From a virus: 24,061 nt of DNA. Below are positions 1,583 through 22,702 of the stretch, piece after piece (the stretch's first letter is position 1; every line of letters starts with the position of its first letter). The notes under the pieces are model-generated. The model did no database searches and was not told the DNA's origin. It was given only the letters and a program-made list of their open reading frames with translations. The position numbers and the translations under genes are program-made. Where the stretch lies: the IMG/VR virus record IMGVR_UViG_3300042888_002520, positions 1 through 24,061 of that record; one strand, written 5' to 3'.

Positions 1583-1585
1583 ATA

Positions 1586-2641
1586 TTATCCAATATGTAA
1601 TGCTTGTCTATATATGTCGTGCTTGATAGGCAAGTTTGAAAACCACATTTCTGATCTATAGTTGTCTTGGATCAACTGCTGGGTTAAAAATTTATACCAT
1701 CGATCACTGTGATCTTGATTTCGCAGTGCTGTCACAGCATGTTGCATGTTGATTTGATCACAAAATTTTGATTTTTCTAACTGGTCGATTAATATAGCAC
1801 GATATTTTGTAGGTATTACAGAAATACCTATGTCACTGCCAATGTTGGCCAGCACTGGTTGAAATTGATCAATGGCCAACCAATCAAAATATTCCAAAAG
1901 TTCTGGCAACCACCAGATGTTGATGGCGCTGATTACTGTGGCAAGATTGATTCGAACATTCGATTGAGTCAACATCCAATTTAAATTGTTTTCCACAGTG
2001 GCCCAATCACTGCCACTACGCACTGTACTTGCATGTTTACCTACCGCATCAATACTGGCATGCACTTGTATATTGGTGAATGCCGGCCAAAGGTCTGCTA
2101 CATGTTTTGATTTGGCACCCAGCACTGTCATATTGGTACTATACATCAACACAGGATCTGCACCATCTGCAATGAGTTTTTCTAGTACTTCGTAATGTTG
2201 AGGATTCAGCAAAGGTTCACCGCCAGCAAAATAGACTTTTTTACAACCGCTGAGATCCAAGTTTGCAACATCTATTGGCTGATGCAAAACAATATTTTTT
2301 ACTGAGGCTTCGCTGGACCAACTGGTACTGAACCCTGGACCACAACTGCGACATTTTAGATTACACAAATTGTTGTTGCGAAAATCCAAAAATTTTGTTT
2401 GATGAGAGTCAAAATCTGTGTTAAACTTGTCAAATTGATCTCGCCAGCCAGATTGATTTGGCTTGCAAGAACCATGACACGCATCAGGTACTTCGTTGCG
2501 TAAGAAAGCACCACCCACTTGCATGGTCATTTCCTCGCGGCTGTTGAAATGTGGTCCAGCCCATTGGCAACATGGAGTAAATTTGTTACCAGGCATGTAA
2601 CACACACTGGTCCAAGGAGCTTTACAAAAAACTTTATTCAT
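1586..2641 (-). CDS. Radical SAM protein with extra N-terminal cysteines, 351 aa (copy 1)
   Basis: The radical SAM cluster motif CxxxCxxC is at C93, C97 and C100 (CNLKCRSC). It is followed by a GGEP motif (AGGEPLLN) that in this superfamily helps bind S-adenosylmethionine. The first 60 residues hold six more cysteines (C6, C14, C24, C25, C55, C59), including a CC pair. That recalls the auxiliary Fe-S ligands of SPASM/twitch-type enzymes but placed before the core. Such enzymes modify peptides, proteins or sugars by radical chemistry; the substrate here is unknown. The start is preceded by AAGG and overlaps the previous gene by 8 nt. Two other genes (start codons at 6193 and 22702) share the layout. 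The fold is secure, the reaction is not. Confidence 0.9.
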   Translation of the reverse strand: MNKVFCKAPWTSVCYMPGNKFTPCCQWAGPHFNSREEMTMQVGGAFLRNEVPDACHGSCKPNQSGWRDQFDKFNTDFDSHQTKFLDFRNNNLCNLKCRSCGPGFSTSWSSEASVKNIVLHQPIDVANLDLSGCKKVYFAGGEPLLNPQHYEVLEKLIADGADPVLMYSTNMTVLGAKSKHVADLWPAFTNIQVHASIDAVGKHASTVRSGSDWATVENNLNWMLTQSNVRINLATVISAINIWWLPELLEYFDWLAIDQFQPVLANIGSDIGISVIPTKYRAILIDQLEKSKFCDQINMQHAVTALRNQDHSDRWYKFLTQQLIQDNYRSEMWFSNLPIKHDIYRQALHIG

Positions 2642-2933
2642 TTACCTTGATTAGTTTGTATATCATTATAACACGTTCCACAGCATCTTGTAAAGTGGGA
2701 TTGGTCCGGGCCAGTCGCCGGATGTCACCCCACATTTTATCTTCCTGGAGGTGATCAAACAAGGGCCTGCCATCACTAGTGCGCTTGTCGTAATCAACAT
2801 GATGCCCATTTACCGGATCATAATCCCAACCAACCGCTTGTCTAGTGCTGGAATCAGCACCTGCTTCGCGGGCATACACTTTATTGTCCACACGCTCGTA
2901 GATGTAGGTGGCGCCGGGTTTAAGGGTTCCCAT
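2634..2933 (-). CDS. Conserved small phage protein of unknown function, 99 aa
   Basis: The likely start is the ATG at 2933 (MGTLKPGATYIYER). I prefer it to a start at 2978 because the upstream part would overlap all of the preceding small gene's C-terminus. The protein has an N-terminal beta-like segment (TYIYERVDNKVYAREAGAD), a middle rich in His and Asp (GWDYDPVNGHHVDYD), and a C-terminal helix (TLQDAVERVIMIYKLIK). I recall similar short proteins with a TLKPGATYIYER start in aquatic T4-like phages, without known function. It overlaps the preceding 48-aa ORF by 14 nt and the next radical SAM gene by 8 nt. Confidence 0.75.
   Translation of the reverse strand: MGTLKPGATYIYERVDNKVYAREAGADSSTRQAVGWDYDPVNGHHVDYDKRTSDGRPLFDHLQEDKMWGDIRRLARTNPTLQDAVERVIMIYKLIKVNE
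2665..2694 (-). promoter_or_regulatory. Weak promoter candidate, TTTACA-18-TATAAT
   Basis: On the minus strand TTTACA (2694-2689) is followed after 18 nt by TATAAT (2670-2665), inside the 3' end of the 99-aa gene and about 24 nt upstream of the radical SAM start at 2641. The -10 is perfect and the -35 has one mismatch. The location inside a coding sequence makes chance occurrence a real possibility. Confidence 0.25.
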
Positions 2934-3066
2934 ACTTGTAGCCATATTGTGCATGTGCCCAGCGCAGGAATCGTTCAAGACCTTCCTGATCTTCTGGATA
3001 ACTTTCCAAGTAAATCTTGGCCAAGCGATTGATCATTTCAAATATTTGTGGTTCGGTGTATGCCAT
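2920..3066 (-). CDS. Small ORF, 48 aa, unknown function
   Basis: This ORF is read directly from the minus strand. It starts MAYTEPQIFEMINRLAKIYL, continues with an acidic segment (ESYPEDQEGLERF) and ends WAHAQYGYKYGNP. It begins one base after the stop of the preceding gene (TGG TAA C ATG), the same junction seen at four other places here. It overlaps the next gene by 14 nt. The sequence is amphipathic and helical with no membrane segment. Tight packing and plausible composition support a real gene, and skipping it would leave an unusual gap of about 135 nt in a tight operon. No function can be assigned. Confidence 0.7.
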   Translation of the reverse strand: MAYTEPQIFEMINRLAKIYLESYPEDQEGLERFLRWAHAQYGYKYGNP

Positions 3067-3067
3067 G

Positions 3068-3568
3068 TTACCAAGCCTTGTTGTAGTCTACTATCTCACA
3101 GTTGCGACTGATGTCTTTCACAAAGTACACACAGTCTGGATCTGGGTCATCGTTCAATGGCACAGAAAGCAACTGGCCATTCTTTAGTTTGGGTGCATAC
3201 CACGACACTTCGTGATACACATCTAGTATTTCAATGTCTGGGAAACTTGGACGGAAACTTGTGAGTGGATTGAACTGAAATACTTTAAAGCCACGATCGT
3301 TGATTGATGTCAACGGTAACACTTCTAGATCACCTACTTCAGGTTCGCCAATGAGTATTTGCCAGTCCATGGGCATTTTTATGGTGTTGGTTCCTATTCG
3401 TAGCACAAGTGCAGGCGCATTAAAACTTTCTAAAAAGATCAGTGGAATAAAATGATAGTCGGGCTCTTGGGGGTTTGAGTTGTCTAATATAGCAAACCGC
3501 ATGTCATCTACTTCTTCAGGCAAATGATCTAAGTCGTAGTGGATGTTGTCTAGGGTTAATATTCGCAT
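3068..3568 (-). CDS. Conserved phage protein of unknown function, 166 aa
   Basis: From the ATG at 3568 the protein reads MRILTLDNIHYDLDHLPEEV, then mostly beta-type sequence with many Pro, Leu and Ile residues (HFIPLIFLESFNAP, MPMDWQILIGEPEVGD, LPLTSINDRGF, SFRPSFPDIEILDVY). It ends near CVYFVKDISRNCEIV. I see no catalytic motif, and the cysteines are few and unpatterned. I recall it as a conserved hypothetical of aquatic T4-like phages, with no function. No Shine-Dalgarno sequence is visible. A GTG 15 nt upstream is the alternative start, but it falls inside a good promoter match whose expected start site lands near the ATG. The stop is TGG TAA, one base before the next ATG. Confidence 0.75.
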   Translation of the reverse strand: MRILTLDNIHYDLDHLPEEVDDMRFAILDNSNPQEPDYHFIPLIFLESFNAPALVLRIGTNTIKMPMDWQILIGEPEVGDLEVLPLTSINDRGFKVFQFNPLTSFRPSFPDIEILDVYHEVSWYAPKLKNGQLLSVPLNDDPDPDCVYFVKDISRNCEIVDYNKAW

Positions 3569-3574
3569 GTTGTT

Positions 3575-3603
3575 ATAATACACTGTTGTGTGACAGAAGT
3601 CAA
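3575..3603 (-). promoter_or_regulatory. Sigma-70-like promoter, TTGACT-17-TATTAT
   Basis: On the minus strand TTGACT (3603-3598) and TATTAT (3580-3575) are 17 nt apart. The -35 hexamer overlaps the stop codon of the UvsW gene. Transcription should start about 7 nt beyond the -10, at or very near the ATG at 3568. It could drive the small-gene operon to the left of uvsW. The hexamer match and spacing are seen in the sequence; activity is inferred. Confidence 0.45.
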
Positions 3604-5069
3604 CCTATTTTCATCCAGTCCAGCTTTTCTTGTGTAAAGGGATAGTTGGCTTCTTTGTAGAACTGTTTGCGCTTGGTCAAGTGACGCTTGGCAAATTTAC
3701 AAGTGCTGGTCAAGTCCCAGATCTGAACATGATCTTTGTCTTCTGCTCGTCTAATGCCTCGCCCAATGCTTTGTATAACGCGGACAAAGCTCTTTCCAGG
3801 TTCAACCAGAACCAAATTAAAAATACGGGGAATATTGATACCCACGGCGGCCACACCATATGTGGCCACAATGATTTTGTCTGTTGCGTCAGCCACTTCA
3901 TCATACTCTGCTTGCCTGTTTTTTGTTTTGGTTGCACCTGATACAAAAACTGCACGATCGCCCAAGCGTTCCACCAGTTGTCTACCACATTCAGTTCGGT
4001 CCACCAGCACTAGTGTGTTGCCTGTTTCGTTTACTCGGTTTATCAAGTCAGCCATGGTGTCCAAGCGTCCTGATTCCTCAAGCAAGTATTTGAGCTCACT
4101 TTGATAGTCTTTGTATTCCACATGATCAATCAGTTGCACAATGTTCACATGACAGTTGGCCAGCACACCTTGTTGTTGCAGTTCGCTGGCACTGAGCTTG
4201 CCAATCACCGGACCAAGACTCACAAGCAAGGCTTGGCTTTCAAACTTCTCTTTGGGCACAGTTCCAGTCAATCCCCAGCGAATCGGCACTCTCGACATTA
4301 CACCTGTCAGCAAGGTCTTTAGTGCGTCTGCCTTGGCCATGTGTACTTCGTCCACAATAACACATACCACGTCTTCCAAAAACTCACCTATGGTACAATC
4401 GCCTATGCCGGCCTTGGTATTCTTCAACAGGTTGTTTAGACTTTGCCATGTGCATATGGTGTGTTGACGTCCGTATTCTTTTCTGTCACCAAAGTACACA
4501 CCAACATCTTGTTGCATGTTGATATAGTCTGCTTCAGTCTGTGTGACCAAGCTCTTGTTGGGCACAATAACAATACTGCGTCCATAGGGTGTGACAGCAT
4601 TGCTCAAAGCCGCTGTCATTATGGTCTTGCCTGCGCCTGTGGCCACTTCCTGTATGCACTGTGGGTTGGCCAAGAAGTTGTTCACAATCTCCACTTGATA
4701 GTCACGCAACATGATGGGCTCACCTGCGGCGGGATGACCTTTGGGCCAGGTCACATGTGCAAAACTTGTTTCTGAGACCTGTTCAAAGTTGAATGTGTTT
4801 GAGTAGTCCCGTTGATCATCCAGTTCAACATCATAATCCAGCCGCTCCAATATGGGCATGATCTCAGGCAACAGGTTCACATAAGTTGATCCACCCAATT
4901 GAAAGTATGCCACCTTACCATCCCAGCGACCCAGTCTCACTGCTGGCAAATAACGTGCGGCAGGGTTTTCGTATTTGAAAGCATTGACCAAGGCCTTGCG
5001 AGCATCCAAGTCCAGGCCTTCAATCTTGATGTTTACTTCATCACGTATTTGTATGGTGCATCGTTTCAT
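3600..5069 (-). CDS. uvsW: UvsW-type SF2 DNA/RNA helicase, 489 aa
   Basis: This is a complete superfamily-2 helicase. Motif I (Walker A) is ATGAGKT at residues 143-149, motif II is DEVH at 240-243, motif III is LTGT at 267-270, and motif VI is QSIGRGIRR at 433-441. A Q-type LRDYQ segment precedes motif I at 121-125. Before the core lies a roughly 110-residue N-terminal domain with ARYLPAVRLGRWDGKV, typical of the UvsW N-terminal DNA-binding domain. In T4, UvsW unwinds branched DNA and R-loops, drives fork regression, and helps switch from origin- to recombination-dependent replication. The length fits T4 UvsW. The start overlaps the upstream radical SAM stop as ATGA, so they are co-translated. 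The uvsX and uvsY-like genes lie about 17 kb away. Confidence 0.95.
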   Translation of the reverse strand: MKRCTIQIRDEVNIKIEGLDLDARKALVNAFKYENPAARYLPAVRLGRWDGKVAYFQLGGSTYVNLLPEIMPILERLDYDVELDDQRDYSNTFNFEQVSETSFAHVTWPKGHPAAGEPIMLRDYQVEIVNNFLANPQCIQEVATGAGKTIMTAALSNAVTPYGRSIVIVPNKSLVTQTEADYINMQQDVGVYFGDRKEYGRQHTICTWQSLNNLLKNTKAGIGDCTIGEFLEDVVCVIVDEVHMAKADALKTLLTGVMSRVPIRWGLTGTVPKEKFESQALLVSLGPVIGKLSASELQQQGVLANCHVNIVQLIDHVEYKDYQSELKYLLEESGRLDTMADLINRVNETGNTLVLVDRTECGRQLVERLGDRAVFVSGATKTKNRQAEYDEVADATDKIIVATYGVAAVGINIPRIFNLVLVEPGKSFVRVIQSIGRGIRRAEDKDHVQIWDLTSTCKFAKRHLTKRKQFYKEANYPFTQEKLDWMKIG

Positions 5070-6193
5070 ATGTATTGAGCTAGGTCTGGGAATGTGTTTT
5101 TAAAATCTAAATTTCTATATTGATCATGCCGTTGTACAAACTGTTTGAATTGATCAAACAGATTGCTGTTATCTGTGTTCTGCATTAGATTTGACCAGAC
5201 ACGCACATCTTCAATTGTACTTGATTGTAATTTATTTACAATGGCCAACTTGGCCGGAGTTGACCAGACTGAAGGTCTTAACCAAGCAGATGTATGTACC
5301 TTGCCCATCCAGGGTCTGGGTAGTCCTTTTTGTTGACACCATGTTACAAATTCTTCTATGTAAAATATATTAAATGCACTCACAGCATGTGCCACACTGA
5401 GTTTGATGTTTGACTGTTGCTGTTGTAATTTGAGATATTGTTCGGCATGATTCTCTAATGTATTCCAGTCTGCTGGATATCTTAGATACTCAAATCGATT
5501 GTGTATACCATCAATGCTCAACTGCAAATCAATTTCAGCAAAGTGAGTCCATCTATCTAGCCAACTTTGCTCGGGAAAGATGGTGGCATTGGTGGTATAA
5601 TGAATAGAGATATTTTTTGATTGCCCGGTGTGTATGTAATGATCTAACAATGCTCGATGCTGTTCTATATTGGACAGCATGGGTTCACCGCCGTGCAAGT
5701 CTATGTGTATCAAGTTAGGAGCAATGTCAGTAATATTAATGATTAAATCTTTCCGCACACTTTCAATGTTTTGAACTTGTATGCCATACACATCTTTGTA
5801 TTCCTTGATCCATTTGCTGGATGCAGCCGGACCGCAAATGATACATTTTAAGTTGCAAGTGTTTCCCAGCGCCAAACTGGCTGTCAGCAATGCATTGCTA
5901 TCTAAATCATATTCGTCATAATGATGTTTCCAACGAGTGTAATCAAGTTGTCGTTTGCTTTCAATGCCGTTTTCTTCTTCTATCTTGCACCGCTCACATC
6001 CTGAGGGCCACTCACCTGTTTGAAACTGTTGTTTGATCGTGGACAACATTGCACTTTGCCGGTAGTCATCTATGGTGTGATGCTGTATGTTAAAAGTCTG
6101 TGCATAAGACTGACTTCCAAATTTACAACAAGGCAGTATCTCCCCAGTGGGCAGTATTTCCAAATTACTCCAAGGTGCAAAACAAAAAGTCAT
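5066..6193 (-). CDS. Radical SAM protein with extra N-terminal cysteines, 375 aa (copy 2)
   Basis: The radical SAM motif CNLKCIIC provides C113, C117 and C120, and HGGEP follows at 167-171. The N-terminus has MTFCFAPWSN with C4, then a CC pair at C22-C23 and CERC at C66/C69, closely matching the arrangement in the genes starting at 2641 and 22702. The opening FCFAPWSNLEILPTGEILPCC is a hallmark of SPASM/twitch-type radical SAM proteins. The remainder forms the usual partial TIM barrel (LSIDGIHNRFEYLR) and a C-terminal extension of about 100 residues. The substrate is unknown. The stop overlaps uvsW as ATGA, which ties its expression to a recombination gene. There is no Shine-Dalgarno, and two tandem -10 hexamers lie just upstream. 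Confidence 0.92.
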   Translation of the reverse strand: MTFCFAPWSNLEILPTGEILPCCKFGSQSYAQTFNIQHHTIDDYRQSAMLSTIKQQFQTGEWPSGCERCKIEEENGIESKRQLDYTRWKHHYDEYDLDSNALLTASLALGNTCNLKCIICGPAASSKWIKEYKDVYGIQVQNIESVRKDLIINITDIAPNLIHIDLHGGEPMLSNIEQHRALLDHYIHTGQSKNISIHYTTNATIFPEQSWLDRWTHFAEIDLQLSIDGIHNRFEYLRYPADWNTLENHAEQYLKLQQQQSNIKLSVAHAVSAFNIFYIEEFVTWCQQKGLPRPWMGKVHTSAWLRPSVWSTPAKLAIVNKLQSSTIEDVRVWSNLMQNTDNSNLFDQFKQFVQRHDQYRNLDFKNTFPDLAQYI

Positions 6194-6211
6194 ATTATGT
6201 GTGTATTGTCG

Positions 6212-6251
6212 ATTATACGTGTATTATACGTGAAATTTTAACTTGTTGCAA
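6212..6251 (-). promoter_or_regulatory. Promoter with tandem TATAAT boxes upstream of the radical SAM-uvsW pair
   Basis: On the minus strand TTGCAA (6251-6246) is followed after 17 nt by TATAAT (6228-6223), and a second TATAAT lies at 6217-6212. The two -10 boxes are in a short direct repeat (ACGTATAAT twice, 11 nt apart). The ATG of the radical SAM gene is 19 nt beyond the second box. The hexamers are seen directly; two alternative start sites are inferred. Confidence 0.45.
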
Positions 6252-7122
6252 CCTTGATACTTTTAATGCATTGGTGTTGGGAAATCATTTCTATTATTTG
6301 TGACTTTGATTGTGTCATAATCAATTTACCTAAAGTTATACTGCCTAAGCTCAGCTTGGAGTCGTATTTTTTATAACCTTGTCTGTGAAAAAAATCTTGA
6401 TTTTGTTCAAAATATTTCCATATCAATTGCTCAGTATTTTTCAAATCTTGTGCAGAATCTGAATGGAATCTAACGGTAAAGTCAACACACAAGTGACTTT
6501 GTGGTTTGAAAGCATCAGGTGCAATATATTGATCATTGTCGTGCCACAGGTCATACAAGGTTTTACCAATTTCACAATAGTTCAATCTTAAATCTCCCCA
6601 GTCCTCCTGCAAGGTGAACAATTCAAATTCATTATCTTCTATTAGGTCTCGGTAAGGTTTGTATTTCCAAGTTGCAACAAATCTTGGAAAAGCGTTTAAT
6701 GTTTCGTAACGATGAATCCAAATATTCAAATCACCCAAGGCATCTTGTACCGCAACTGGAGCCTTAGAAAAAAATTCATTGCTGGATTGTTGATCATACA
6801 ACCCATGATACACTTCAAATATATGATGTAAGTAATTTAGGTCGTCTTGTGTTGGACTGTGTCCAATGGATTTTTGAATTAGCCCAGGAGAATAGTCGTT
6901 AATTGTTTGTATCAATCTGCGTAGATGGTCCACCACACGATCATGTGTGTATTCAGAATTTGGAAAGTTATAAAATCTCTTAAGATCATCCCATGGTTGT
7001 CCAGCCTCTATAAATAAGTTTAGGTGTTTCAACCACTTGTGTGTTATACTTGTATCTACCAAATCAAAATACAACTCATAGTCAGTTTGATGATTGGTAA
7101 GAGTAATAATAATTTTATGCAT
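6238..7122 (-). CDS. Conserved protein of unknown function, 294 aa
   Basis: A soluble acidic-to-neutral protein rich in His, Tyr, Trp and Asp. Recognisable stretches are KWLKHLNLFIEAGQPW, DLNYLHHIFEVYHGLYD (about 95-112), DLNIWIHRYETLNAFPR, and LRLNYCEIGKTLYDLWHDND (about 180-200). I know similar proteins from aquatic phage genomes, often near radical SAM and glycan genes, but no function is established and I see no catalytic motif I can name. Base composition is AT-richer than uvsW. Its start codon shares the palindrome ATGCAT with the divergent plus-strand gene, so the two 5' ends overlap by 6 nt. No clear Shine-Dalgarno sequence is present. Confidence 0.75.
   Translation of the reverse strand: MHKIIITLTNHQTDYELYFDLVDTSITHKWLKHLNLFIEAGQPWDDLKRFYNFPNSEYTHDRVVDHLRRLIQTINDYSPGLIQKSIGHSPTQDDLNYLHHIFEVYHGLYDQQSSNEFFSKAPVAVQDALGDLNIWIHRYETLNAFPRFVATWKYKPYRDLIEDNEFELFTLQEDWGDLRLNYCEIGKTLYDLWHDNDQYIAPDAFKPQSHLCVDFTVRFHSDSAQDLKNTEQLIWKYFEQNQDFFHRQGYKKYDSKLSLGSITLGKLIMTQSKSQIIEMISQHQCIKSIKVATS
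7008..7016 (+). promoter_or_regulatory. T4-type late promoter motif CTATAAATA
   Basis: CTATAAATA on the plus strand contains the T4 late promoter consensus TATAAATA exactly. Initiation would be near 7022, about 95 nt before the ATG at 7117 and inside the opposite-strand 294-aa gene. The same nine bases recur at 13712-13720 before the other main plus-strand operon. Confidence 0.5.
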
Positions 7123-7701
7123 AATTCTAAAACAATCGAGGTAGCAGTTACACTACAAGGATACTTTTGCAATGACTGGCCGTGTGTGGAGGTTTCTGGG
7201 AATAATCATATTTATTATACAGGAACTGTTCAACAAACACAAGCAATTAGATTTTCAATGCCGTCTTGTGAGATCAATCAAGTTGTTATTACACATCAAA
7301 ACAAAAGATTTGGTCCTGACGGAATATGGGACGTTGCTGTCAAAGACAATGTAATTATTCAAGATCGAGCAGTGAAATTGTTGGATTTTGAGTTGGATGA
7401 CGTTAGTATCAAGTCCTATACATTTGATAATTGTAGATTTGTCACGGACCAAAATGAAATTCTACAAACAGATTATTTTGGTCACAATGGATATTTTGTA
7501 ATTGAGTTCGGAGGGCCAATTTACGAATGGATTATTTGCAATTGTGTCAAACCCCAGGCAAAAATTGCCCCGGGGAACTTTGTGATAAGCACCACTGCAG
7601 ACAACTTGTTTGACTATGTTCAAGACCAAGTAGAGCTAGATGAAATTGAAGGGATTTTAAATCAACATGCACATTTGTTTAATCAATTTACCAAGATATG
7701 A
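7117..7701 (+). CDS. Unknown protein, probably beta-rich, 194 aa
   Basis: The likely start is the ATG at 7117 (MHNSKTIEVAVTLQGYFCND). Starts further upstream would extend deep into the opposite gene. The sequence alternates hydrophobic and polar residues as in beta-sheet proteins (TIEVAVTL, HIYYTGTV, QVVITHQNKRF, VIEFGGPIYEWIICN). A jelly-roll or carbohydrate-binding type fold is possible but unproven. It has no signal peptide or catalytic motif. The C-terminus overlaps the next radical SAM gene by 35 nt, so the two are probably co-translated. The start codon lies within ATGCAT, shared with the divergent gene, and a CTATAAATA late promoter motif is about 100 nt upstream. Confidence 0.7.
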   Translation: MHNSKTIEVAVTLQGYFCNDWPCVEVSGNNHIYYTGTVQQTQAIRFSMPSCEINQVVITHQNKRFGPDGIWDVAVKDNVIIQDRAVKLLDFELDDVSIKSYTFDNCRFVTDQNEILQTDYFGHNGYFVIEFGGPIYEWIICNCVKPQAKIAPGNFVISTTADNLFDYVQDQVELDEIEGILNQHAHLFNQFTKI

Positions 7702-9199
7702 AATCCATCGTCCGCCACTGAGTTTGGCCACACTGAGTGAGATATGCAACCAAGCACAGGTTGACTACAATTGCATAGATTTAAGTTTGTTGATCTATCA
7801 ACATTTACAGGATGACTTTGAAGCCATAGATAATTTTTGTATCACAAGACAAGTTGAACCTGATGTATTGCAAAAACTAAAGGTACTAATTGACCGAATA
7901 ATCAAACAGCAAGTGGATCAGTATCCTGATTCAACATTTGCACTGTCACTATTGAGTATTTGGAGTCAGCCAGTGTGTGAACTTGTGTGCGCCAGTATCC
8001 GAACACACAGCAATTCCCAAATATTATTAGGCGGTCAAGGTTTGGCGGACAAAACTTGGACTATGAATCAAATCAGTCAAGGTGCTGCTGATGAGTTCAT
8101 AGTGAATGAAGCAGAGATTGTTTTTAAAAATTGGCTGCAAGGGGACAAGTCAGGTCCTGGCTGTAATAATTACAACTTTGAGCAGATAGATGATCTTGAT
8201 CAGCATGTTGTAGTACCTGACTACAGAAAACTTCCTATTGATCAATATCCTTACCTGGGTAACACCAGTTTTTTCATTACTGCCAGTCGTGGGTGTGTGC
8301 GTAATTGTGCCTACTGCGACATTGCACATCAATGGAAAAAGTATCGGTACCGAAGTGCAGCCAGTGTGTTTAAAGAAATGACCACACAATTCGAACGTCA
8401 CGGCGTGACTGATTTCTTTTTCACAGACAGTTTGATAAACGGCAGCATGAAAATGCTCAATGACTTATGTGACTTGTTAATTGACTACAAACAAAAGAAT
8501 CCAAATGCAAAGTTGAACTGGCAAGGACAATATATTTTTCGTCCTCGCAGTTCAGTCAATCTTGCGCACATTAAAAAAATGACTGATGCTGGTTTGAATT
8601 TTTTAGTAGTGGGTCTTGAGACTGGTAGTGATCAGGTGAGGTATGATATGAATAAAAAACATACTACTGATGATGCAGAGTGGTTTTTGGAACAGTTCAA
8701 ACAGCATGGTATAAAATGTAGACTGTTGATGATAACTGGATGGATAAATGAAACAGAAGAAGATCACAAAGCTACTTTGGAACTGTTTCCTCGTTGGCAA
8801 AAATATGTAGCCAGTGGGACTATAACTGGCATTGAATTAGGTAGCACATTAAGTATTTTGGAACATGCACCGGTGGCCATGCGAGTGCCTGACCTGGGTA
8901 TTCAACTGCTGAACAACAAAGGCTACCTGTGGTTCAATCCCACCAACCCTGACTTGACAATTGCCACAAGATTTAAAAGAAGACTAGAAACACATCGACA
9001 AGCAATAAAGTATTACTGGCCTATAACACGTAGCCTTTATCGACTGAGTACTATCAAGTCAAATTTATTAGAAGCTATTAAATATCTGACAGAGCCGCAG
9101 GCTCGTCCTCGGGTATTTGAAATAAATTTAGTCAAAAAAACAGGCTCCGAAGAGCCTGTTGTAAAAACCCGGGGCGGAGCCAACCAATCCCCAGGGTAA
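7667..9199 (+). CDS. B12-binding-type radical SAM protein, 510 aa
   Basis: The radical SAM motif CVRNCAYC (C210, C214, C217) follows SFFITASRG, as in the B12-binding/Elp3-like radical SAM group. The N-terminal 160 residues look like a cobalamin-binding-type Rossmann domain: MHICLINLPRYEIHRPPLSL, then ILLGGQG at 119-125 and DEFIVNEAE. I do not see the DxHxxG cobalamin lower-ligand motif, so B12 use is uncertain. Further features are FFFTDSLING and GLNFLVVGLETGSD (around 320), typical of the barrel. Relatives include methyltransferases and methylthiotransferases. It differs from the other three radical SAM genes, which carry N-terminal cysteine pairs. Its last 20 or so codons read through a terminator hairpin that serves the opposite strand. 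Confidence 0.9.
   Translation: MHICLINLPRYEIHRPPLSLATLSEICNQAQVDYNCIDLSLLIYQHLQDDFEAIDNFCITRQVEPDVLQKLKVLIDRIIKQQVDQYPDSTFALSLLSIWSQPVCELVCASIRTHSNSQILLGGQGLADKTWTMNQISQGAADEFIVNEAEIVFKNWLQGDKSGPGCNNYNFEQIDDLDQHVVVPDYRKLPIDQYPYLGNTSFFITASRGCVRNCAYCDIAHQWKKYRYRSAASVFKEMTTQFERHGVTDFFFTDSLINGSMKMLNDLCDLLIDYKQKNPNAKLNWQGQYIFRPRSSVNLAHIKKMTDAGLNFLVVGLETGSDQVRYDMNKKHTTDDAEWFLEQFKQHGIKCRLLMITGWINETEEDHKATLELFPRWQKYVASGTITGIELGSTLSILEHAPVAMRVPDLGIQLLNNKGYLWFNPTNPDLTIATRFKRRLETHRQAIKYYWPITRSLYRLSTIKSNLLEAIKYLTEPQARPRVFEINLVKKTGSEEPVVKTRGGANQSPG
9134..9160 (-). terminator. Intrinsic terminator with UUCG loop (minus strand)
   Basis: Read on the minus strand, AACAGGCTC, loop TTCG and GAGCCTGTT form a perfect 9-bp stem (9160-9152 with 9147-9139), followed directly by a run of T (the stem's last two plus five more). 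UUCG-capped hairpins with a U-tract are typical of T4-like phage terminators. It would stop transcription from the early promoters at 10366-10908. It lies inside the 3' end of the plus-strand radical SAM gene. Confidence 0.85.
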
Positions 9200-9202
9200 A
9201 AC

Positions 9203-9292: not shown

Positions 9293-9293
9293 G

Positions 9294-12452: not shown

Positions 12453-12453
12453 G

Positions 12454-13086: not shown

Positions 13087-13102
13087 AGAGATATTTAAGT
13101 AG

Positions 13103-13702: not shown

Positions 13703-13711
13703 AATCTTAGC

Positions 13712-13720
13712 CTATAAATA
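13712..13720 (+). promoter_or_regulatory. T4-type late promoter motif CTATAAATA next to an ATG
   Basis: The plus strand has CTATAAATA, matching the T4 late consensus, only 5 nt before the ATG at 13726. Initiation 6-7 nt beyond the box would fall on or just after the start codon. The motif is identical to that at 7008-7016. Confidence 0.5.
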
Positions 13721-13725
13721 TCTAC

Positions 13726-14490: not shown

Positions 14491-15173
14491 AACCTATACC
14501 TGTATTTGTAGGATATGATCCACGAGAAGCTGTGGCATATCATGTGTGTGCAAACTCAATCATTAGACACGCTAGTCAACCAGTGGCCGTAATTCCCGTG
14601 GCTCTAAACTTGTTTCAAGACTACGATGAAACACACACTGATGGCAGCAATCAATTTATCTACAGCCGTTTTCTTGTGCCACACTTGATGGACTACCAGG
14701 GCTGGGCCATATTCATTGACGGCGACATGATCCTGCGCGGAGATATTGTAGAACTATGGAATCTACAAAGTCCTTACAACGACGTCATGGTGGTCAAACA
14801 CGACTATCGAACACGCATGACTGAAAAGTATCTTGGGTCAAAGAACGAAGACTATCCACGCAAAAACTGGTCAAGTGTGATACTGTGGAACTGCAACAGT
14901 TTTCCCAATCGCAAACTAACACCTGAGTTTGTGCAAAAATCAACAGGGTCTGAACTGCATAGATTCACTTGGTTAGAAGATGAACGCATTGGTGAACTGC
15001 CCCCAGAGTGGAACTGGTTGGATGTCGAATATGAATGGAATCCACTTGCTAAACTTGTTCATTATACTTTAGGAACTCCGTGCTTTCATGAGTTTGCTGA
15101 TGTGGGAGATTTTGCAGAAGAGTGGCACCGAGAAAGACTACTGACTGACTATTGTCAACAAAGGAGCACCTGA
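14487..15173 (+). CDS. Glycosyltransferase-like protein, 228 aa (DGDM motif)
   Basis: The sequence MKPIPVFVGYDPREAVAYHV opens a GT8-like GT-A domain. FIDGDMILRGDI, with DGDM at 78-81, supplies the metal-binding DxD. YSRFLVPHLMDYQGWAIF before it is typical of GT8 transferases. The later NWSSVILWNCNSF and HYTLGTPCFHE match the conserved C-terminal part of that group. It probably adds a hexose to the glycan made by this operon; donor and acceptor are not deducible. It starts in an ATGA overlap with the nucleotidyltransferase-cupin gene and ends in a TGATG overlap with the next. Confidence 0.87.
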   Translation: MKPIPVFVGYDPREAVAYHVCANSIIRHASQPVAVIPVALNLFQDYDETHTDGSNQFIYSRFLVPHLMDYQGWAIFIDGDMILRGDIVELWNLQSPYNDVMVVKHDYRTRMTEKYLGSKNEDYPRKNWSSVILWNCNSFPNRKLTPEFVQKSTGSELHRFTWLEDERIGELPPEWNWLDVEYEWNPLAKLVHYTLGTPCFHEFADVGDFAEEWHRERLLTDYCQQRST

Positions 15174-15985
15174 TGACAAACTTTATTTTTCTCAGCAAAG
15201 GTGGCACAGATGAATATATCAACATGTTGGCCAATAGCGCAGGTAAAGAACCCACTAACACAGATTTTTTTGACTACAAGTATGACATAATAATGGATGG
15301 AATGACTCCAGTACTCCGTGGTATCTTGAAATACAAGATCATGCAAAAATGCCTGGCCGACCACAAAGATTTTTACTACGTGGATTCTGGCTATGTTGGT
15401 AACAATATCAACCGACTAAACCCCATGGGCAATAAACTGTATCATCGCATTGTCAAGAACGATTTGCAACAAACTGAAATACGACCCCGTCCAAACGATC
15501 GTTGGCAAGCTCTTGGTATCAACCTACAGCCAAGAAAGTTTGGCAAAAAAATTATCATTGCGGCACCAGACGAAAAGCCCTGTAGGTATTACGGAATTGA
15601 TCAAGCACAGTGGGTGCAACAAACTATTGAAGAAATTAAAAAATACACCAACCGTCCTATTATAGTGCGTCAACGAGCACCAAAACGAGTTGACCGGATA
15701 GCAACTGCGCCATTGCAGCAGGTGCTGACACAAGACGTTCATGCTCTGGTGACATTTAACAGTGTTGCCGCAGTAGAATCTATTTTGTCAGGAGTACCAG
15801 CATTTGTACTGGCGCCCAGTCATATAGCACAACCTGTGGCTAGTACGCAGTTGAGTCAAATTGAAAATCCTTACTGGGCAGATCAAGACAAATTAAATGC
15901 ATGGTGCCATAGTATGGCCTATGGTCAATACCATGTGCGTGAACTGCGCGATGGTACCGCTTTTAGAATGATGCAAGAATCATGA
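15173..15985 (+). CDS. Glycan biosynthesis/transfer protein, 270 aa (paralog 1 of 3)
   Basis: The start is the ATG at 15173, with AAGGAG ten bases upstream; a TTG at 15152 is the alternative. The protein begins MTNFIFLSKGGTDEYINMLA. The C-terminal half has HALVTFNSVAAVESILSGVP followed by AFVLAP, then LSQIENPYW and VRELRDGTAF. The same order occurs in the genes at 15982 and 19129. NSxxAxxxxLxGxPxFV resembles the UDP/CMP-sugar-binding end of capsule polysaccharide (KpsC/KpsS-type) transferases. I have no proof for the donor. A middle stretch rich in Lys (PRKFGKKIIIAAP) lies before it. It sits inside the plus-strand operon with TGATG and ATGA junctions. Confidence 0.72.
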   Translation: MTNFIFLSKGGTDEYINMLANSAGKEPTNTDFFDYKYDIIMDGMTPVLRGILKYKIMQKCLADHKDFYYVDSGYVGNNINRLNPMGNKLYHRIVKNDLQQTEIRPRPNDRWQALGINLQPRKFGKKIIIAAPDEKPCRYYGIDQAQWVQQTIEEIKKYTNRPIIVRQRAPKRVDRIATAPLQQVLTQDVHALVTFNSVAAVESILSGVPAFVLAPSHIAQPVASTQLSQIENPYWADQDKLNAWCHSMAYGQYHVRELRDGTAFRMMQES

Positions 15986-16950
15986 AAGTCGTCTGCTATT
16001 TGGCCACGCTGCCAAGAAAATTGGAGTACACGTCTGACCAAAGCCTTCAAGCTGCCACAGACAAACTCAACACTTTGAAGTTTTTTATTCAAGGTGTACA
16101 GGCCTGCGGTGATGAAGGTGTTGTTGTAGATGACGCTAACTATCAGCCCAGTGACGTGGCTGTGATACTGGGCTGGGTACACGAACATGGCAAAACCGCG
16201 CCACACTTGCAACTGCGTCAGCAGATATTGGACGGGCAACGTGCGTACAATGGTCGTACTGTGATTGCTGACAGCAATCTTTTTCTGTACAAAAACACAA
16301 GCAATCCTGGCTACTGGTTGCGCTACAGTTTTGATGGCATATTCCCCAACACAGGACAATACTGTGACACTGCGCCCGAACCTGCTCGTTGGTCAGCAGT
16401 GCAACAAAATCTCAACATACATCTCAAACCTTGGCGCACACAAGGCAATCATGTCCTGTTGTGTTTGCAACGTGACGGTGGCTGGAGCATGGGCGGAGTC
16501 GAAGTACTGGACTGGGCAATGAAGATCATACTGCAATTGCGCAGATATACCAACCGGCCCATTAGAATACGTGCGCATCCTGGCGACAAACGAGCCAAGA
16601 AGTATTGCGACCGATTGATGAAACTGTGTGTGGGCCGCAGACTACTCAATGTAGAACTCAGCACACCAGATACATCGCTAGAGCATGATTTAAAAAATTG
16701 TTGGGCGGTGGTCAATCATAACTCCAGCCCTGCAGTGGGCGCAGCAATCGAAGGTATTCCAGTTTTTGTTACTGATCCTGAACGCAGTCAAGTGCGAGAA
16801 ATTGCCGAAACAAGATTGGACAAAATAGAAACACCTATAACACCTGACCGTGACGCATGGATACAACGTATAAGTCAATTCCACTGGAGTCATCAAGAGC
16901 TCCAAGACGGCACAGCCTGGGCACACATGAGAAAGTTTGTGGAAAAATGA
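15982..16950 (+). CDS. Glycan biosynthesis/transfer protein, 322 aa (paralog 2 of 3)
   Basis: The C-terminal part has WAVVNHNSSPAVGAAIEGIP and VFVTDPERS, then LDKIETPITPDRDAW and HQELQDGTAW. These are in the same order as its two paralogs, and a RPIRIRAHPGDKR segment precedes them. NHNSSPAVGAAIEGIPVFV is close to motifs in KpsC/KpsS-type capsule glycosyltransferases. The N-terminus (MKVVCYLATLPRKLEYTSDQ) is longer than in the other two. It lies in ATGA overlap with both neighbours. A CMP- or UDP-sugar transferase role is inferred. Confidence 0.75.
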   Translation: MKVVCYLATLPRKLEYTSDQSLQAATDKLNTLKFFIQGVQACGDEGVVVDDANYQPSDVAVILGWVHEHGKTAPHLQLRQQILDGQRAYNGRTVIADSNLFLYKNTSNPGYWLRYSFDGIFPNTGQYCDTAPEPARWSAVQQNLNIHLKPWRTQGNHVLLCLQRDGGWSMGGVEVLDWAMKIILQLRRYTNRPIRIRAHPGDKRAKKYCDRLMKLCVGRRLLNVELSTPDTSLEHDLKNCWAVVNHNSSPAVGAAIEGIPVFVTDPERSQVREIAETRLDKIETPITPDRDAWIQRISQFHWSHQELQDGTAWAHMRKFVEK

Positions 16951-17666
16951 TAGACATTATTACCAGCTTTGATCAACGCTATCATGACCTAATAGGCAAG
17001 GATTGCGTAAGCAGTTTCTTAGAACACTGGGATTCACAATTTCAGTTGACTTGTTATGTCGAAGGTTTTGCCTTGCCTGACCATGCCAGACTCAAACAGA
17101 TTGATTTTAACTTGCAAATGGGCCCAGAGTATCATGCATTGCAACAAGACACTGCTTATGGTGTGCAAGTTAAAAAATTCAGCAAAAAAGCGTTCAGTGT
17201 GATACATGCCATGTATCACAGTGCTGCAGATTGGATATTGTGGTTGGATGCTGATGTAGTTACCATGAAGGCGTTGCCGGCTTATGTGATCTTGGACTGC
17301 ATGCGGTCTGAAGATCTCAGCATGTACATGGGCGTGACCTATACTACCGACAAATCAGGCAATCCTGGATCATGGCTTGTGCCCGAAACTGGGGTGTTTG
17401 CTGTAAACACCAAACATCCAAAGTTTGAAACTCTTAGACACGAGTATCGTAGACGCTATGTTGAACGTGATCATTCTGACCTGCGCAGATTCTACGACAA
17501 TGATGTGTTTGGTGCTGCCATCAATCTTGCTGATGCCCCGGTGTATGATTTGTGTGAGGGATTTGCCAAACCTTACAAAACACCCTTACCACACACAGTG
17601 CTGGGTGAATATCTTATACACTACAAGGCCAAACACAGCAAGGCCGACTATCAAGCAGACCAATAA
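16947..17666 (+). CDS. Glycosyltransferase-like protein, 239 aa (DADVV motif)
   Basis: The start at 16947 gives the ATGA overlap with paralog 2; longer readings would fall inside that gene. The DxD-type motif is ILWLDADVV with DADVV at 101-105, preceded by FSKKAFSVIHAMYHSAADW. WLVPETGVFAVNTKHPKFE then gives the usual post-DxD segment of GT-A transferases. The gene starting at 18466 on the minus strand shares the whole FSxKxxSVxH...AD.L.W.DAD block, so the two are paralogs. It ends converging on that gene with a 16-nt overlap of coding sequence. No terminator is visible between them. Confidence 0.85.
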   Translation: MIDIITSFDQRYHDLIGKDCVSSFLEHWDSQFQLTCYVEGFALPDHARLKQIDFNLQMGPEYHALQQDTAYGVQVKKFSKKAFSVIHAMYHSAADWILWLDADVVTMKALPAYVILDCMRSEDLSMYMGVTYTTDKSGNPGSWLVPETGVFAVNTKHPKFETLRHEYRRRYVERDHSDLRRFYDNDVFGAAINLADAPVYDLCEGFAKPYKTPLPHTVLGEYLIHYKAKHSKADYQADQ

Positions 17667-18466
17667 CTTTCGCTTCGGGGTTGAATGAGATCCTTGGCTG
17701 GACTCCGGCCAGTTTCCTTGCGCCTGCCTTTGAGATGGTCAAGATAGGCACCCCAAGCAGTGTTGATTAGTGGATGACCTTCGCCTTTGATCAGTCCTTG
17801 ACTCCAGTTAAGTTGGCGCCATTTAGGATGTGTAGCTTGCACTTCGTTACGAGTCTCATCAAACACCCAGCAGTCATTCCATTCGGCCATGGTCATAAGA
17901 CGTCCTGAATCATAGGCCAACTGAAATTCTTTGAGCCACGTTAGTGTAGCAGTGTCACGCAGGTTCATGCCGTACAAACCACATTCACTAAACTTTCGTT
18001 CGCGTCCTAGATAGGCCAGTCCTACCTTGGCGGGCATTTGACTGTTGATAAAGTCAGTAGAAATAGGTGTATGGCACACCATGTCTGCATCCATCCAAAA
18101 TAATACATCGGCATTGCAACTGTCTGCACAGTGAACTACTGAATAGACTTTGTGGCTGAATCTAATGGCGTCCCAACGGAATCCGAGGCCTGGGGCTTTG
18201 CCTTTGCGGTCCGCTGGCCCTGTGGCAACTAAACCACGTGCTCTAGGATCGCTGCCCCAGCGTTGTTTGAACGCTACAATTTCTGGGCTTACTGCATGTA
18301 AATCTCTCACATGCAGATTAGGTGCGCTCTGTTGTATCACACAGTCTTCAGTGTACACATATAAATCAATTTCTTTGGGCCAGTTTTGTAAGAACGTGTC
18401 AATCATGCGGCTGGCGTAGCGTTCGTAACCGCTGGCATTGAATGTTGTGACCACTGCGTATTTCAT
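17651..18466 (-). CDS. Glycosyltransferase-like protein, 271 aa (DADMV motif)
   Basis: The start is the ATG at 18466, in an ATGA overlap with the FkbM methyltransferase gene; an in-frame ATG 12 bases upstream would extend into it. VLFWMDADMV gives DADMV at 126-130, preceded by FSHKVYSVVHCADSCNADV, the block shared with the plus-strand glycosyltransferase at 16947. The N-terminus (MKYAVVTTFNASGYERYASR) is a first GT-A strand, and EIDLYVYTEDCVI is a typical second segment. A basic tail (KGRRKETGRSPAKDLIQPR) follows. Probably a hexosyltransferase on the phage glycan; the acceptor is unknown. Confidence 0.85.
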   Translation of the reverse strand: MKYAVVTTFNASGYERYASRMIDTFLQNWPKEIDLYVYTEDCVIQQSAPNLHVRDLHAVSPEIVAFKQRWGSDPRARGLVATGPADRKGKAPGLGFRWDAIRFSHKVYSVVHCADSCNADVLFWMDADMVCHTPISTDFINSQMPAKVGLAYLGRERKFSECGLYGMNLRDTATLTWLKEFQLAYDSGRLMTMAEWNDCWVFDETRNEVQATHPKWRQLNWSQGLIKGEGHPLINTAWGAYLDHLKGRRKETGRSPAKDLIQPRSESYWSA

Positions 18467-19110
18467 TTGGGTATCCATATTGTATTACTCTTGCTCTTGA
18501 CAGGGGCTGCCTCATATGGACCGCACAAATCATTGAGCCACTGTCTATGTTGATCTTGTTGACCGTTGTCCTCAATCAACAACCAAGGTCTATTGCGTTG
18601 TATGGTGTCACGACTGCCGTCTAGCACTGCATTTTCAAAACCTTCAACATCAATCTTGATCCAGTCAACTGATTCAAAATTGAATCGATCCAGTGTGGTT
18701 AGTTCTCCAGTGTGCTTTTCAAACTCTGGGTTGGGCACAAACTCTGCCACCTGTTTGGTGTGCCCACACTTGAGAGTTTGTAATTCAAATGTTGCTGTTT
18801 GATCTCTGTTGCTAAGACCTAAGTTATAGAGTTCTACGTTGCTGTATGTTTCTAGATTTTTTTGCAAGACTTCAAAATTTTTGAGCACTGGTTCAAAACA
18901 TATCACATGTTCAAAACGTTCAGCACTGGGTCTAGCAAATATGCCAATGTTGGCACCAATATCAATCATGGTACGCTTGCGAGGAATATTGTTGTACACA
19001 TACCAGCGATAACGATTTTGATAATGTACATCCACTACCTCCTGCAGTCGTTCACTAAAAAATCCATTTGGTGGCTCAGAAGAATACCACAGTGAGTTTA
19101 TTTTATACAT
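18463..19110 (-). CDS. FkbM-family SAM-dependent methyltransferase, 215 aa
   Basis: All hallmarks of the FkbM family are visible: IDIGANIG at 49-56 (SAM-binding motif I), CFEP at 71-74, LTTLDRF at about 136-142, and IKIDVEGFE at 150-158. Family members O-methylate sugars or other polar substrates; here a glycan hydroxyl is the plausible target. The length fits the family. The stop overlaps the glycosyltransferase start as ATGA, so they form an operon. No Shine-Dalgarno is evident, and the divergent plus-strand gene begins 18 nt away. That short gap leaves no room for two conventional promoters. Confidence 0.93.
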   Translation of the reverse strand: MYKINSLWYSSEPPNGFFSERLQEVVDVHYQNRYRWYVYNNIPRKRTMIDIGANIGIFARPSAERFEHVICFEPVLKNFEVLQKNLETYSNVELYNLGLSNRDQTATFELQTLKCGHTKQVAEFVPNPEFEKHTGELTTLDRFNFESVDWIKIDVEGFENAVLDGSRDTIQRNRPWLLIEDNGQQDQHRQWLNDLCGPYEAAPVKSKSNTIWIPK

Positions 19111-19128
19111 ATATAACTATTTAATCCA

Positions 19129-20926
<1,798 letters not shown>

Positions 20927-20955
20927 CTATGTATGTGACTTTTTGAGACAATAAA

Positions 20956-20963
20956 AATTTATA
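20956..20963 (-). promoter_or_regulatory. Late-promoter-like TATAAATT upstream of gmd
   Basis: On the minus strand TATAAATT differs from the T4 late consensus TATAAATA by one base. It is about 45 nt before the gmd ATG, leaving room for a leader with GGAGG. This AT-rich gap could produce it by chance. Confidence 0.25.
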
Positions 20964-20969
20964 TCAGTG

Positions 20970-21080
20970 TTATATATGTTCCACACACCACCAAAAAGCC
21001 ACCCAGGCCGCAATGAAGAATATCACTAAGAAAAATTCCATTTCTGCTAAATCGCGTTGCCAACGTTCTTGGTCAGTCAT
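20970..21080 (-). CDS. Tiny predicted membrane protein, 36 aa
   Basis: The minus strand encodes MTDQERWQRDLAEMEFFLVI followed by FFIAAWVAFWWCVEHI and TAA. A charged 13-residue start precedes a hydrophobic stretch of about 18 residues ending in WW, the layout of a single-pass small membrane protein. The ATG is one base after the stop of the UvsY-like gene (GTA TAA C ATG), exactly as for the 29-aa membrane ORF after the ATPase. No Shine-Dalgarno is visible. Length limits confidence, but the shared junction and composition suggest it is real. Possible roles (lysis timing, membrane inhibition, phage exclusion) are guesses. Confidence 0.5.
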   Translation of the reverse strand: MTDQERWQRDLAEMEFFLVIFFIAAWVAFWWCVEHI

Positions 21081-21081
21081 G

Positions 21082-21534
21082 TTATACCGTGATGTCTTCC
21101 ATGCCGGCTGTGCGCAGTCTGACCACATGCCCCATCTGCCACTGCTTGGTATCCAGGCCCTTCATGATGCCCAGCCAACGATTGCGCAACAGCGCCACTT
21201 CGTTGATGATGGTTTCAAAGTCCACAACTTCTTCTTCACCGTCCACATACTTTTCAGCATCACGTGCTGTGAGCGCACGAGCATAGCCTTCCAGGTACTT
21301 TTTAAAGTGCCGGGTTCGAATCTTGCGTAATTGGATGTTGAGAAAGTTCAGCACAGCTTCAATTTCTTGCAGCTGGTTGAACCTATGCTCAGTGATGCCC
21401 GGCAAGGCAGTGATGTTCTTTTCTACTAGGCCGCCAATCTTGCAGTCACGTTTGGCATCAGTTAACTCTGACTCAAAGTGTGCAATGAAGTCAGGTATAT
21501 TACTGAGGTCTGCTACTACTTTACTGTACCACAT
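21082..21534 (-). CDS. uvsY: Probable recombination mediator UvsY, 150 aa
   Basis: The protein is short, charged and helical. The central NQLQEIEAVLNFLNIQLRKI and RHFKKYLEGYARALTARDAE lead to a C-terminal half with RNRWLGIMKGLDTKQWQMGH and VVRLRTAGMED. The pattern LTARDAEKY...ALLRNRWLGIM...DTKQWQMGHVVRLRTAG can be laid over T4 UvsY's C-terminal segment, which has LSADKD and ends with AFAIKHIQDMRAFEAG-like sequence. The likeness is weak. T4 UvsY is about 137 aa and loads UvsX onto single-stranded DNA. The presence of uvsX and uvsW in the window supports the call. The overlap with the upstream radical SAM gene is 14 nt. An alternative is an unrelated conserved phage protein. Confidence 0.55.
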   Translation of the reverse strand: MWYSKVVADLSNIPDFIAHFESELTDAKRDCKIGGLVEKNITALPGITEHRFNQLQEIEAVLNFLNIQLRKIRTRHFKKYLEGYARALTARDAEKYVDGEEEVVDFETIINEVALLRNRWLGIMKGLDTKQWQMGHVVRLRTAGMEDITV

Positions 21535-22702
21535 GTATGTCTAGCCAATCTAAAAACGTTTTTGGAAAAATACTTAAATCTAAATTTCGCCTTGACGAAA
21601 ACTCTTGCAAAAACGTTGCTAAATTTTTTTGATCAATCGGTGATACTTCATAATCAGATTTTAGCAAGTCTATTAGAATTTTAAATTGTTGATTGTTTTG
21701 TTTGTCTAAAACTTCTAGTAAATTGTATTTTGACTCTTTGTCCATTTTTTGTACGTCAAGAAATTCAGGAATAACACACAAATTTTCTTCTATCTCAGCA
21801 TTGACAAAATTAACAAAATCAACATATCCAAATGCGGTTAGATTGCTGAGTGTAGAATAAAATTGATACTTAATTCCTGATGTTTTTACATAATCTAGCA
21901 ATTCTACCAAATGATCAAAAGAATATCCATACCGGTTAAATTCATGTAGTTTTCCAATATTCTCTGCACTGATCCCCAATTTAAAACTTGGATAATCTCG
22001 CAGTTGATCAATCAATCTTATAAATTTATTTTTAGGTATTCCAAGACCGGTCATTACAGTAAAGACAGAATTTGGATTGCTTATTTTTATTAGATCAAGC
22101 ACTTGTGTCTCATACAGCAACGTCTCGCCACCAGTGATGTACCAGACTTTTATTGTTTTTGCATGTTCGATCAAATGACTATACAGTGTCTGAAACTTTG
22201 AACTTGAATATATGTCATTTTGTTTCAGTTTTTTAAACAATAAATTTTCAGTGCTCAGTACATACGATGGTCTAGAATTTTCAAAATTATACTCGCCATT
22301 TTTTTCAATATCTTCAGACCAAGCACGGCTCCACTCAGGTCCACAATACGAACAAGTAAGTGTACAGCGATTGCCTAGCGAAATATTCACTTGCTCTAAA
22401 ATATCAATCTGAGCTGATTGGTGAGTTTTCTCTGCTCCGCCATTGATTGATCTAATGCTAGGTAATCCAGCATCTTCGTTTTTCCAACACGGTTTTTCAC
22501 AGGACAACACACGAGTATTAGACAACATCTGCTTGCGCTCGTTGCGTATAACTGATAAATTCAATAACCCATTTTTTTCTAAATCAACAAAATCAATTTT
22601 ATATGGTGAAGCAGCACAACATGATGATATTGATGAACTTTGAAATGTTAACGATAATTCAGTAAATTTTCTAGAACAATAATAATTCCGGTCAGTAGTC
22701 AT
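21521..22702 (-). CDS. Radical SAM protein with extra N-terminal cysteines, 393 aa (copy 3)
   Basis: The radical SAM motif CTLTCSYC lies at C113, C117 and C120, followed later by ITGGETLLYE, a GGE motif of the superfamily. N-terminal cysteines at C9, C28-C29, C68 and C72 (SSCCAAS, then CEKPC) mirror the CC plus CxxC/CxxxC layout of the genes starting at 2641 and 6193. Those probably bind an auxiliary cluster. The ATG at 22702 is chosen; a longer reading to 22774 would overlap the acidic gene completely. The gene is visibly AT-rich: one 60-nt line (22561) has 17 G/C against 27 in a uvsX line (23521), suggesting separate acquisition. The start overlaps the preceding stop by 11 nt. The substrate is unknown. 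Confidence 0.9.
   Translation of the reverse strand: MTTDRNYYCSRKFTELSLTFQSSSISSCCAASPYKIDFVDLEKNGLLNLSVIRNERKQMLSNTRVLSCEKPCWKNEDAGLPSIRSINGGAEKTHQSAQIDILEQVNISLGNRCTLTCSYCGPEWSRAWSEDIEKNGEYNFENSRPSYVLSTENLLFKKLKQNDIYSSSKFQTLYSHLIEHAKTIKVWYITGGETLLYETQVLDLIKISNPNSVFTVMTGLGIPKNKFIRLIDQLRDYPSFKLGISAENIGKLHEFNRYGYSFDHLVELLDYVKTSGIKYQFYSTLSNLTAFGYVDFVNFVNAEIEENLCVIPEFLDVQKMDKESKYNLLEVLDKQNNQQFKILIDLLKSDYEVSPIDQKNLATFLQEFSSRRNLDLSIFPKTFLDWLDIHVVQ

Follow-up and report, generated by a model that had tools for sequence, protein, structure and literature searches.

Single-gene radical SAM cassettes in the recombination operons of a T4-like phage

The radical S-adenosylmethionine (SAM) chemistry of phages is usually noted gene by gene. 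A 183-kb T4-like environmental phage genome carries 12 radical SAM genes (PMC5332604). In pelagimyophages, radical SAM cassette differences lie within a host recognition cluster that is rich in glycosyltransferase and lipopolysaccharide (LPS) genes (PMC7029224). Here we describe three radical SAM genes, called A, B and C, in the virus record IMGVR_UViG_3300042888_002520. The window analyzed is the whole record of 24,061 bp, which is probably a fragment. It codes for UvsX, UvsY, UvsW and an AAA protein and contains a sugar gene block, and its phage is T4-like. The three enzymes belong to, or stand near, the NCBIfam family NF033640 (twitch domain-containing radical SAM protein, N_Twi_rSAM; curated cut-off 170 bits). 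No function for this family was found, and the literature searched gave no papers that name its accession or treat radical SAM/SPASM proteins in Bdellovibrio. The family itself is already known. What appears worth following is the presence of exact cassettes of a single open reading frame (ORF) in core recombination operons, together with an expansion common to Bdellovibrionota. A, B and C may tailor surface glycoconjugates, either a phage glycan or the host envelope, and we give this reading a probability of roughly 45%.

1586-2641, minus strand: radical SAM gene A, 351 amino acids (aa); NF033640, 195.7 bits
5066-6193, minus strand: radical SAM gene B, 375 aa; NF033640, 291.8 bits
21521-22702, minus strand: radical SAM gene C, 393 aa; divergent NF033640 relative, 149 bits (below the cut-off)

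Cassettes and slots in the core operons

A and C are seamless single-ORF accessory cassettes in core operons, an arrangement that is new here. The cassettes and the genes around the three enzymes are as follows.

22958-24013, minus strand: UvsX-like recombinase; PHROG 97, E 2e-65
22692-22955, minus strand: small gene with an acidic tail after uvsX, kept with or without C
21535-22691, minus strand: C cassette, absent in the empty L091 allele, in which uvsY directly follows the acidic gene
21082-21534, minus strand: UvsY-like recombination mediator, the core gene downstream of C; PHROG 231, E 1.1e-12
3600-5069, minus strand: UvsW-like helicase, the core gene downstream of B; PHROG 16 (DNA helicase), E 3e-72
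2634-2978, minus strand: small conserved gene upstream of A, kept with or without A
1574-2643, minus strand: A cassette, the stretch absent in empty-slot relatives (the ORF and a few bases)

Where the A slot is empty (L079, L014, L167, L173 and L005), the flanks match the window to 2638-2644 and resume at 1573-1575, leaving them 5-13 bp apart. A homing or transposable element at these slots is not supported: no endonuclease or transposase gene and no extra DNA accompanies A and C, and the insertions consist of the ORF and at most a few bases. An ORF check bore out all three genes as an earlier note on this DNA had placed them. The same note had described B as translationally coupled to uvsW, and the stop of B does overlap the start of uvsW by 4 nt. 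It had also put C between the acidic companion of uvsX and the UvsY-like gene. C overlaps both, by 11 nt and 14 nt, respectively, and the PHROG match backs the naming of UvsY. The overlap of A with the 2634-2978 gene is 8 nt.

Slot occupancy was tallied in the best 80 loci by core-gene similarity, which were picked regardless of radical SAM genes. Among the 80 uvsY loci, the C slot holds a radical SAM gene in 30, is empty in 42, has a longer gap in 4, and could not be judged in 4. The A slot is filled at 7 of the 80 uvsW loci and empty at 63. In the B slot, 15 of 71 have a radical SAM gene that ends at uvsW, and 17 of 63 have one in the slot before uvsX. Slot fillers other than radical SAM genes mostly lack a Pfam name.

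Alleles are also swapped within a slot. Loci whose uvsY is 97-100% identical to that of the window carry C alleles that are only 34-39% identical. In L088 and L089, DNA similarity stops about 40 bp into the start of C and returns about 50 bp before its end. The C slot keeps its lineages, with 2 changes over 27 rows in the tree; the B slot is looser and holds several lineages. Sequences cluster by slot, which rules out random insertion anywhere for the C slot and for the slot before uvsX. The three genes are under purifying selection, with ratios of nonsynonymous to synonymous substitution rates (dN/dS) of 0.10-0.13 for A, 0.08-0.15 for B and 0.11 for C, and of 0.04 for uvsW. In the 212-kb relative G002, uvsY is 98.7% and uvsW 95.5% identical to the window's copies. 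Its copy of B is 88% identical, and A is missing.

A role in recombination is ruled out, since most relatives with intact core genes have the slots empty. For the same reason, the position beside uvsX, uvsY and uvsW is not supported as a clue to the substrate. Placement among recombination and replication genes would be explained if A-C acted in the modification of phage DNA or nucleotides, as in hypermodified bases. Phage glycosyltransferases can glucosylate DNA, and the radical SAM folds of QueE and of viperin, the latter acting on nucleotides, also match. However, most relatives' slots are empty though their core genes are 80-100% identical, no known hypermodification gene is named among the family matches of the window, and NF033640 also forms arrays in bacterial chromosomes. 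We consider DNA modification improbable.

High-turnover accessory cassettes would also fit competition genes. A-C could then be enzymes of inter-phage competition or host takeover that make a small intracellular product in the manner of viperin. Viperin profiles and folds recur among the matches, with viperin_w_prok hitting 63 of the 80 members at E<=0.01. However, the matches of A-C lie far under the viperin family cut-off and cover the common core only, and viperin is not known to have a twitch domain. A competition role appears very unlikely, to about the same degree as DNA modification.

The window's UvsX is closest, at about 65%, to those of large phages, such as Atu_ph07 and Vibrio phage 2.275.O. 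UvsW has a weak Pfam UvsW_N match besides PHROG 16. No isolate of the window's lineage was found, and A or B was matched by distant Vibrio phages only. The sample codes of related records presumably indicate a freshwater habitat.

Immediately upstream of B, positions 6238-7122 code for a 294-aa protein without a name. In relatives, ORFs of similar sequence take up the accessory slots ahead of uvsX and of uvsW, whether a radical SAM gene is there or not. On the opposite strand, a divergent ORF at 7024-7701 codes for a 225-aa plus-strand protein without a family match and leads into a fourth radical SAM gene, D. The two ORFs share about 100 nt at their 5' ends, where the strand switches.

N-terminal cysteines, family and fold

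NF033640 matches A, B and C over nearly their full length, with scores above the cut-off for A and B and below it for C, and it is matched by 80 of the 80 viral homologues. Pfam SPASM (PF13186) aligns full length to residues 4-70 of B (E 4.6e-6) and has matches in 26 of 80 relatives. A, B and C have a permuted SPASM/twitch domain that precedes the radical SAM core and includes the double cysteine. A SPASM domain after the core, as in the maturases of ribosomally synthesized and post-translationally modified peptides (RiPPs), was not found; the SPASM-type domain is N-terminal by the Pfam match of B and by the order of elements in the models of B and C.

2465-2626, minus strand: N-terminal twitch cysteine codons of A (C6, C24(25), C55, C59)
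2342-2365, minus strand: radical SAM core codons of A, CxxxCxxC (C93, C97, C100)
5987-6184, minus strand: N-terminal SPASM/twitch domain of B, C4-x12-G17-x4-C22 then C66xxC69; Pfam SPASM
5834-5857, minus strand: radical SAM core codons of B (C113, C117, C120)
22487-22678, minus strand: N-terminal twitch cysteine codons of C (C9, C28(29), C68, C72)
22343-22366, minus strand: radical SAM core codons of C (C113, C117, C120)

The conserved N-terminal set has four cysteines in all. It comprises an early cysteine (residue 6, 4 and 9 in A, B and C), the first cysteine of a CC pair (24-25, 22-23 and 28-29), and a later CxxC or CxxxC (55/59, 66/69 and 68/72). The core follows at 93/97/100 in A, and B and C both have it at 113/117/120. 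No variation occurs at C4, C66, C69, R81, C113, C117 and C120 (B numbering) among 80 diverse viral homologues, and C22 is conserved to at least 90%. The CxxxCxxC core and a GGE motif are invariant in the alignments, and both are present in A, B and C.

The residue listing agrees with the earlier note on the positions of the CC pair and of the later pair. Both elements are real and, given this conservation, not due to chance; the observation of the note is confirmed, and its interpretation is partly supported. The note had overlooked the early cysteine, and the second cysteine of the CC pair varies among homologues. An auxiliary-cluster architecture common to all three, which it had also proposed, is supported by the N-terminal SPASM/twitch set. 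The core numbering common to B and C was given correctly, but it is a coincidence and means little because the tree does not join B and C as sisters.

The three enzymes appear to be related but anciently separate. A tree built from 81 sequences gives A, B and C a separate clade each, all three with full support, and places bacterial sequences between these clades; a wider quick tree agrees. Some branches are long, which makes the deeper order uncertain. Forcing the three clades into one is rejected by the approximately unbiased (AU) test (p=2.8e-5). Recent triplication within the phage is ruled out by the tree and this test. The view of the three as one related set therefore holds as far as all are in or near NF033640, which also sets aside an origin from unrelated families; it does not hold for a close set, since they form three separate deep clades.

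B and C were modelled with AlphaFold2. The predicted local distance difference test (pLDDT) is 94.0 for B and 93.7 for C, and the predicted template modeling score (pTM) is 0.90 and 0.91, respectively. Both models are confident and have the same N-terminal order of helix, beta-hairpin and helices. The nearest solved folds are SPASM enzymes, with anSMEcpe at the top followed by sactisynthases and SuiB, at a template modeling (TM) score of about 0.4, as expected if the core alone aligns in order. The sugar-acting enzymes DesII, BlsE and AprD4 rank lower among the fold matches.

These folds bring in a second class of substrate. A-C could modify proteins or peptides, either of the virion (fibers, capsid) or of the host, in the manner of a sulfatase maturase or sactisynthase, with substrates coded elsewhere. 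The SPASM/twitch domain argues for this, as do the best secondary profile matches of B, which are to PapB, CefB, YhhB and sulfatase maturase, and the top Protein Data Bank (PDB) folds, which are anSMEcpe, a sactisynthase (5wgg), SuiB and SkfB. However, no small ORF resembling a precursor peptide was found beside A, B or C, as the earlier note had also observed. The acidic gene and the 2634-2978 gene are kept regardless of the enzyme, and the named neighbors include many sugar genes. Modification of proteins or peptides is possible but doubtful. Two narrower versions were rejected: a RiPP pathway with a local precursor, for which no candidate small ORF lies nearby, and the acidic gene or the 2634-2978 gene as a dedicated substrate, since both are conserved without the enzyme.

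The remaining radical SAM gene of the window belongs to a different family.

7667-9199, plus strand: radical SAM gene D; best NCBIfam matches are B12-dependent radical SAM enzymes

D had been described as of the B12-binding type. The NCBIfam matches agree with this, but no B12-binding domain was matched in Pfam. Four such enzymes within 24 kb had been called unusual, but this density is ordinary for the lineage. Radical SAM genes number 13 in G002, nine of them full-length N-twitch genes, and the phage genome cited at the outset has 12. G002 also carries an IscU/NifU scaffold gene (L080:11623-12015, Pfam E 2.9e-52), which overlaps a B12-binding radical SAM gene.

Several arrangements in relatives were also observed. 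In G003 (L018), a viral contig of 62 kb ends in five tandem N-twitch radical SAM genes at positions 2-6466. The stretch from uvsX to the acidic gene in G002 holds a short radical SAM gene, of about 235-250 aa, next to a gene for a protein of 105-118 aa whose cysteines are spaced in a SPASM-like way (L078:14775-15491 and L078:15472-15792). Arrays of phages and of Bdellovibrionota contain this pair again, with further loci at L260:11121-12226 and L266:12423-13468, and neither Pfam nor PHROGs names the small protein. The pair may be a split radical SAM enzyme with a stand-alone twitch domain. L267 (G018, the Rickettsiales metagenome-assembled genome MED657) has ten N-twitch matches in a 16-kb stretch and 30 in the bin, with radical SAM types like those of G002. 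These may be phage contigs that were binned with a bacterium.

Sugar genes and the proposed substrate

The tailoring of surface glycoconjugates is suggested by the neighbors of these genes in the window, in Vibrio phage K566 and in bacterial arrays, which include glycosyltransferase and sugar-nucleotide genes.

10927-20911: sugar/glycan block with GT17, GT8, FkbM and other methyltransferases, a heptose-phosphate nucleotidyltransferase-like/mannose-6-phosphate (M6P) isomerase cupin, and a GDP-mannose 4,6-dehydratase

The cupin protein, at 13726-14490, is a heptose 1-phosphate adenylyltransferase-like nucleotidyltransferase (PHROG 7878) fused to a mannose-6-phosphate isomerase-type cupin, and the G002 copy of this fusion is 75% identical. 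In K566, the order is radical SAM, GT8, radical SAM, radical SAM and GT4-like, with radical SAM and GT8 on the other strand. A genome scan identified 59 bacterial loci, mostly in Bdellovibrionota and often in arrays, which reach 11 genes in 20 kb. Seven bacterial genomes have 8-33 matches each, of which the lowest-scoring are other radical SAM genes. Among 88 array neighbors are 14 other radical SAM genes, 6 GT2 and 6 Asp/Asn beta-hydroxylases, as well as aminotransferases, deoxysugar enzymes, DegT, NDP-hexose 2,3-dehydratase, RmlD, TylF and carbamoyltransferase. These sugar genes support, as a possibility, the earlier suggestion of related enzymes with targets that could be sugars or virion components. 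Tailoring of surface glycoconjugates is further backed by the pelagimyophage cassettes, which sit in a cluster rich in glycosyltransferase and LPS genes. Iron-sulfur supply also counts in its favor because G002 has the IscU/NifU gene.

Most likely, a single auxiliary [4Fe-4S] cluster, fully ligated by the four N-terminal cysteines, sits beside the SAM cluster. A 5'-deoxyadenosyl radical would take a hydrogen from the substrate, and an electron would then pass to the auxiliary cluster. Hydrogen abstraction followed by electron transfer to an auxiliary cluster is established for BtrN and anaerobic sulfatase maturase. The outcome would be dehydrogenation, or perhaps epimerization, of glycoconjugates presumably made with the phage glycosyltransferases, sugar-nucleotide enzymes and methyltransferases. 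With A and C in fixed slots of replication and recombination operons and B at the edge of one, the operon would provide translation by overlap of stop and start codons, as well as homologous flanks at which exchange can occur; the enzymes themselves would not act in recombination. Gain, loss and swapping of cassettes would change the surface.

Several observations weigh against surface glycoconjugates as the substrate. Most SPASM-type relatives have peptide substrates, and peptide maturases give the best matches by both sequence and fold. Asp/Asn beta-hydroxylases, which can act on peptides, make up 6 of the 88 bacterial array neighbors and occur in or beside the N-twitch arrays of 4 of the 7 bacterial genomes; they also speak for protein or peptide modification. 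None of A, B and C directly adjoins a glycosyltransferase in the window, and G002 has the glycan block yet lacks A. The neighbor frequencies are raw counts. The neighbors favor sugars and the domain type favors peptides.

A broader proposal starts from the tailoring of surface glycoconjugates. The uvsX-uvsY, uvsW and adjacent operons would be docking slots for interchangeable, slot-specific radical SAM cassettes, which would give combinatorial, serotype-like surface modification by an enzyme family common to the Bdellovibrionota arrays. We regard this proposal as unlikely.

Comparison with known systems

NF033640 has about nine members in one phage genome and forms arrays in Bdellovibrionota, and it combines this expansion with purifying selection and rapid allele exchange. 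Its substrate is therefore a tractable question. The isolated phage K566, in which radical SAM genes are interleaved with glycosyltransferases, offers a direct route to it. A, B and C resemble the family in matching over the whole length, with the N-terminal four-cysteine domain and the radical SAM core. They differ in that C falls under the curated cut-off and the three form deep separate clades. The Bdellovibrionota arrays contain NF033640 genes, as does the window, but these are in tandem on the chromosome and mixed with glycosyltransferases and other radical SAM genes, whereas A-C are single ORFs in core phage operons.

Among solved structures, anSMEcpe (PDB 4K36-4K39) is the top fold for B and C and has a SPASM-type auxiliary-cluster domain. 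Its SPASM domain is C-terminal with two auxiliary clusters, whereas the domain of B and C is N-terminal with cysteines for one. The T4-like phage of PMC5332604 likewise has many radical SAM genes and iron-sulfur cluster proteins in one genome; it is marine, and the likeness is drawn at the radical SAM level. The closest parallel in behavior comes from pelagimyophages, in which radical SAM cassettes are likewise present or absent between close T4-like phages (PMC7029224), a likeness again at the radical SAM level. Those cassettes lie in a tail-fiber/LPS island, whereas A-C lie in the uvsX-uvsY and uvsW operons, with A and C at single-ORF precision.

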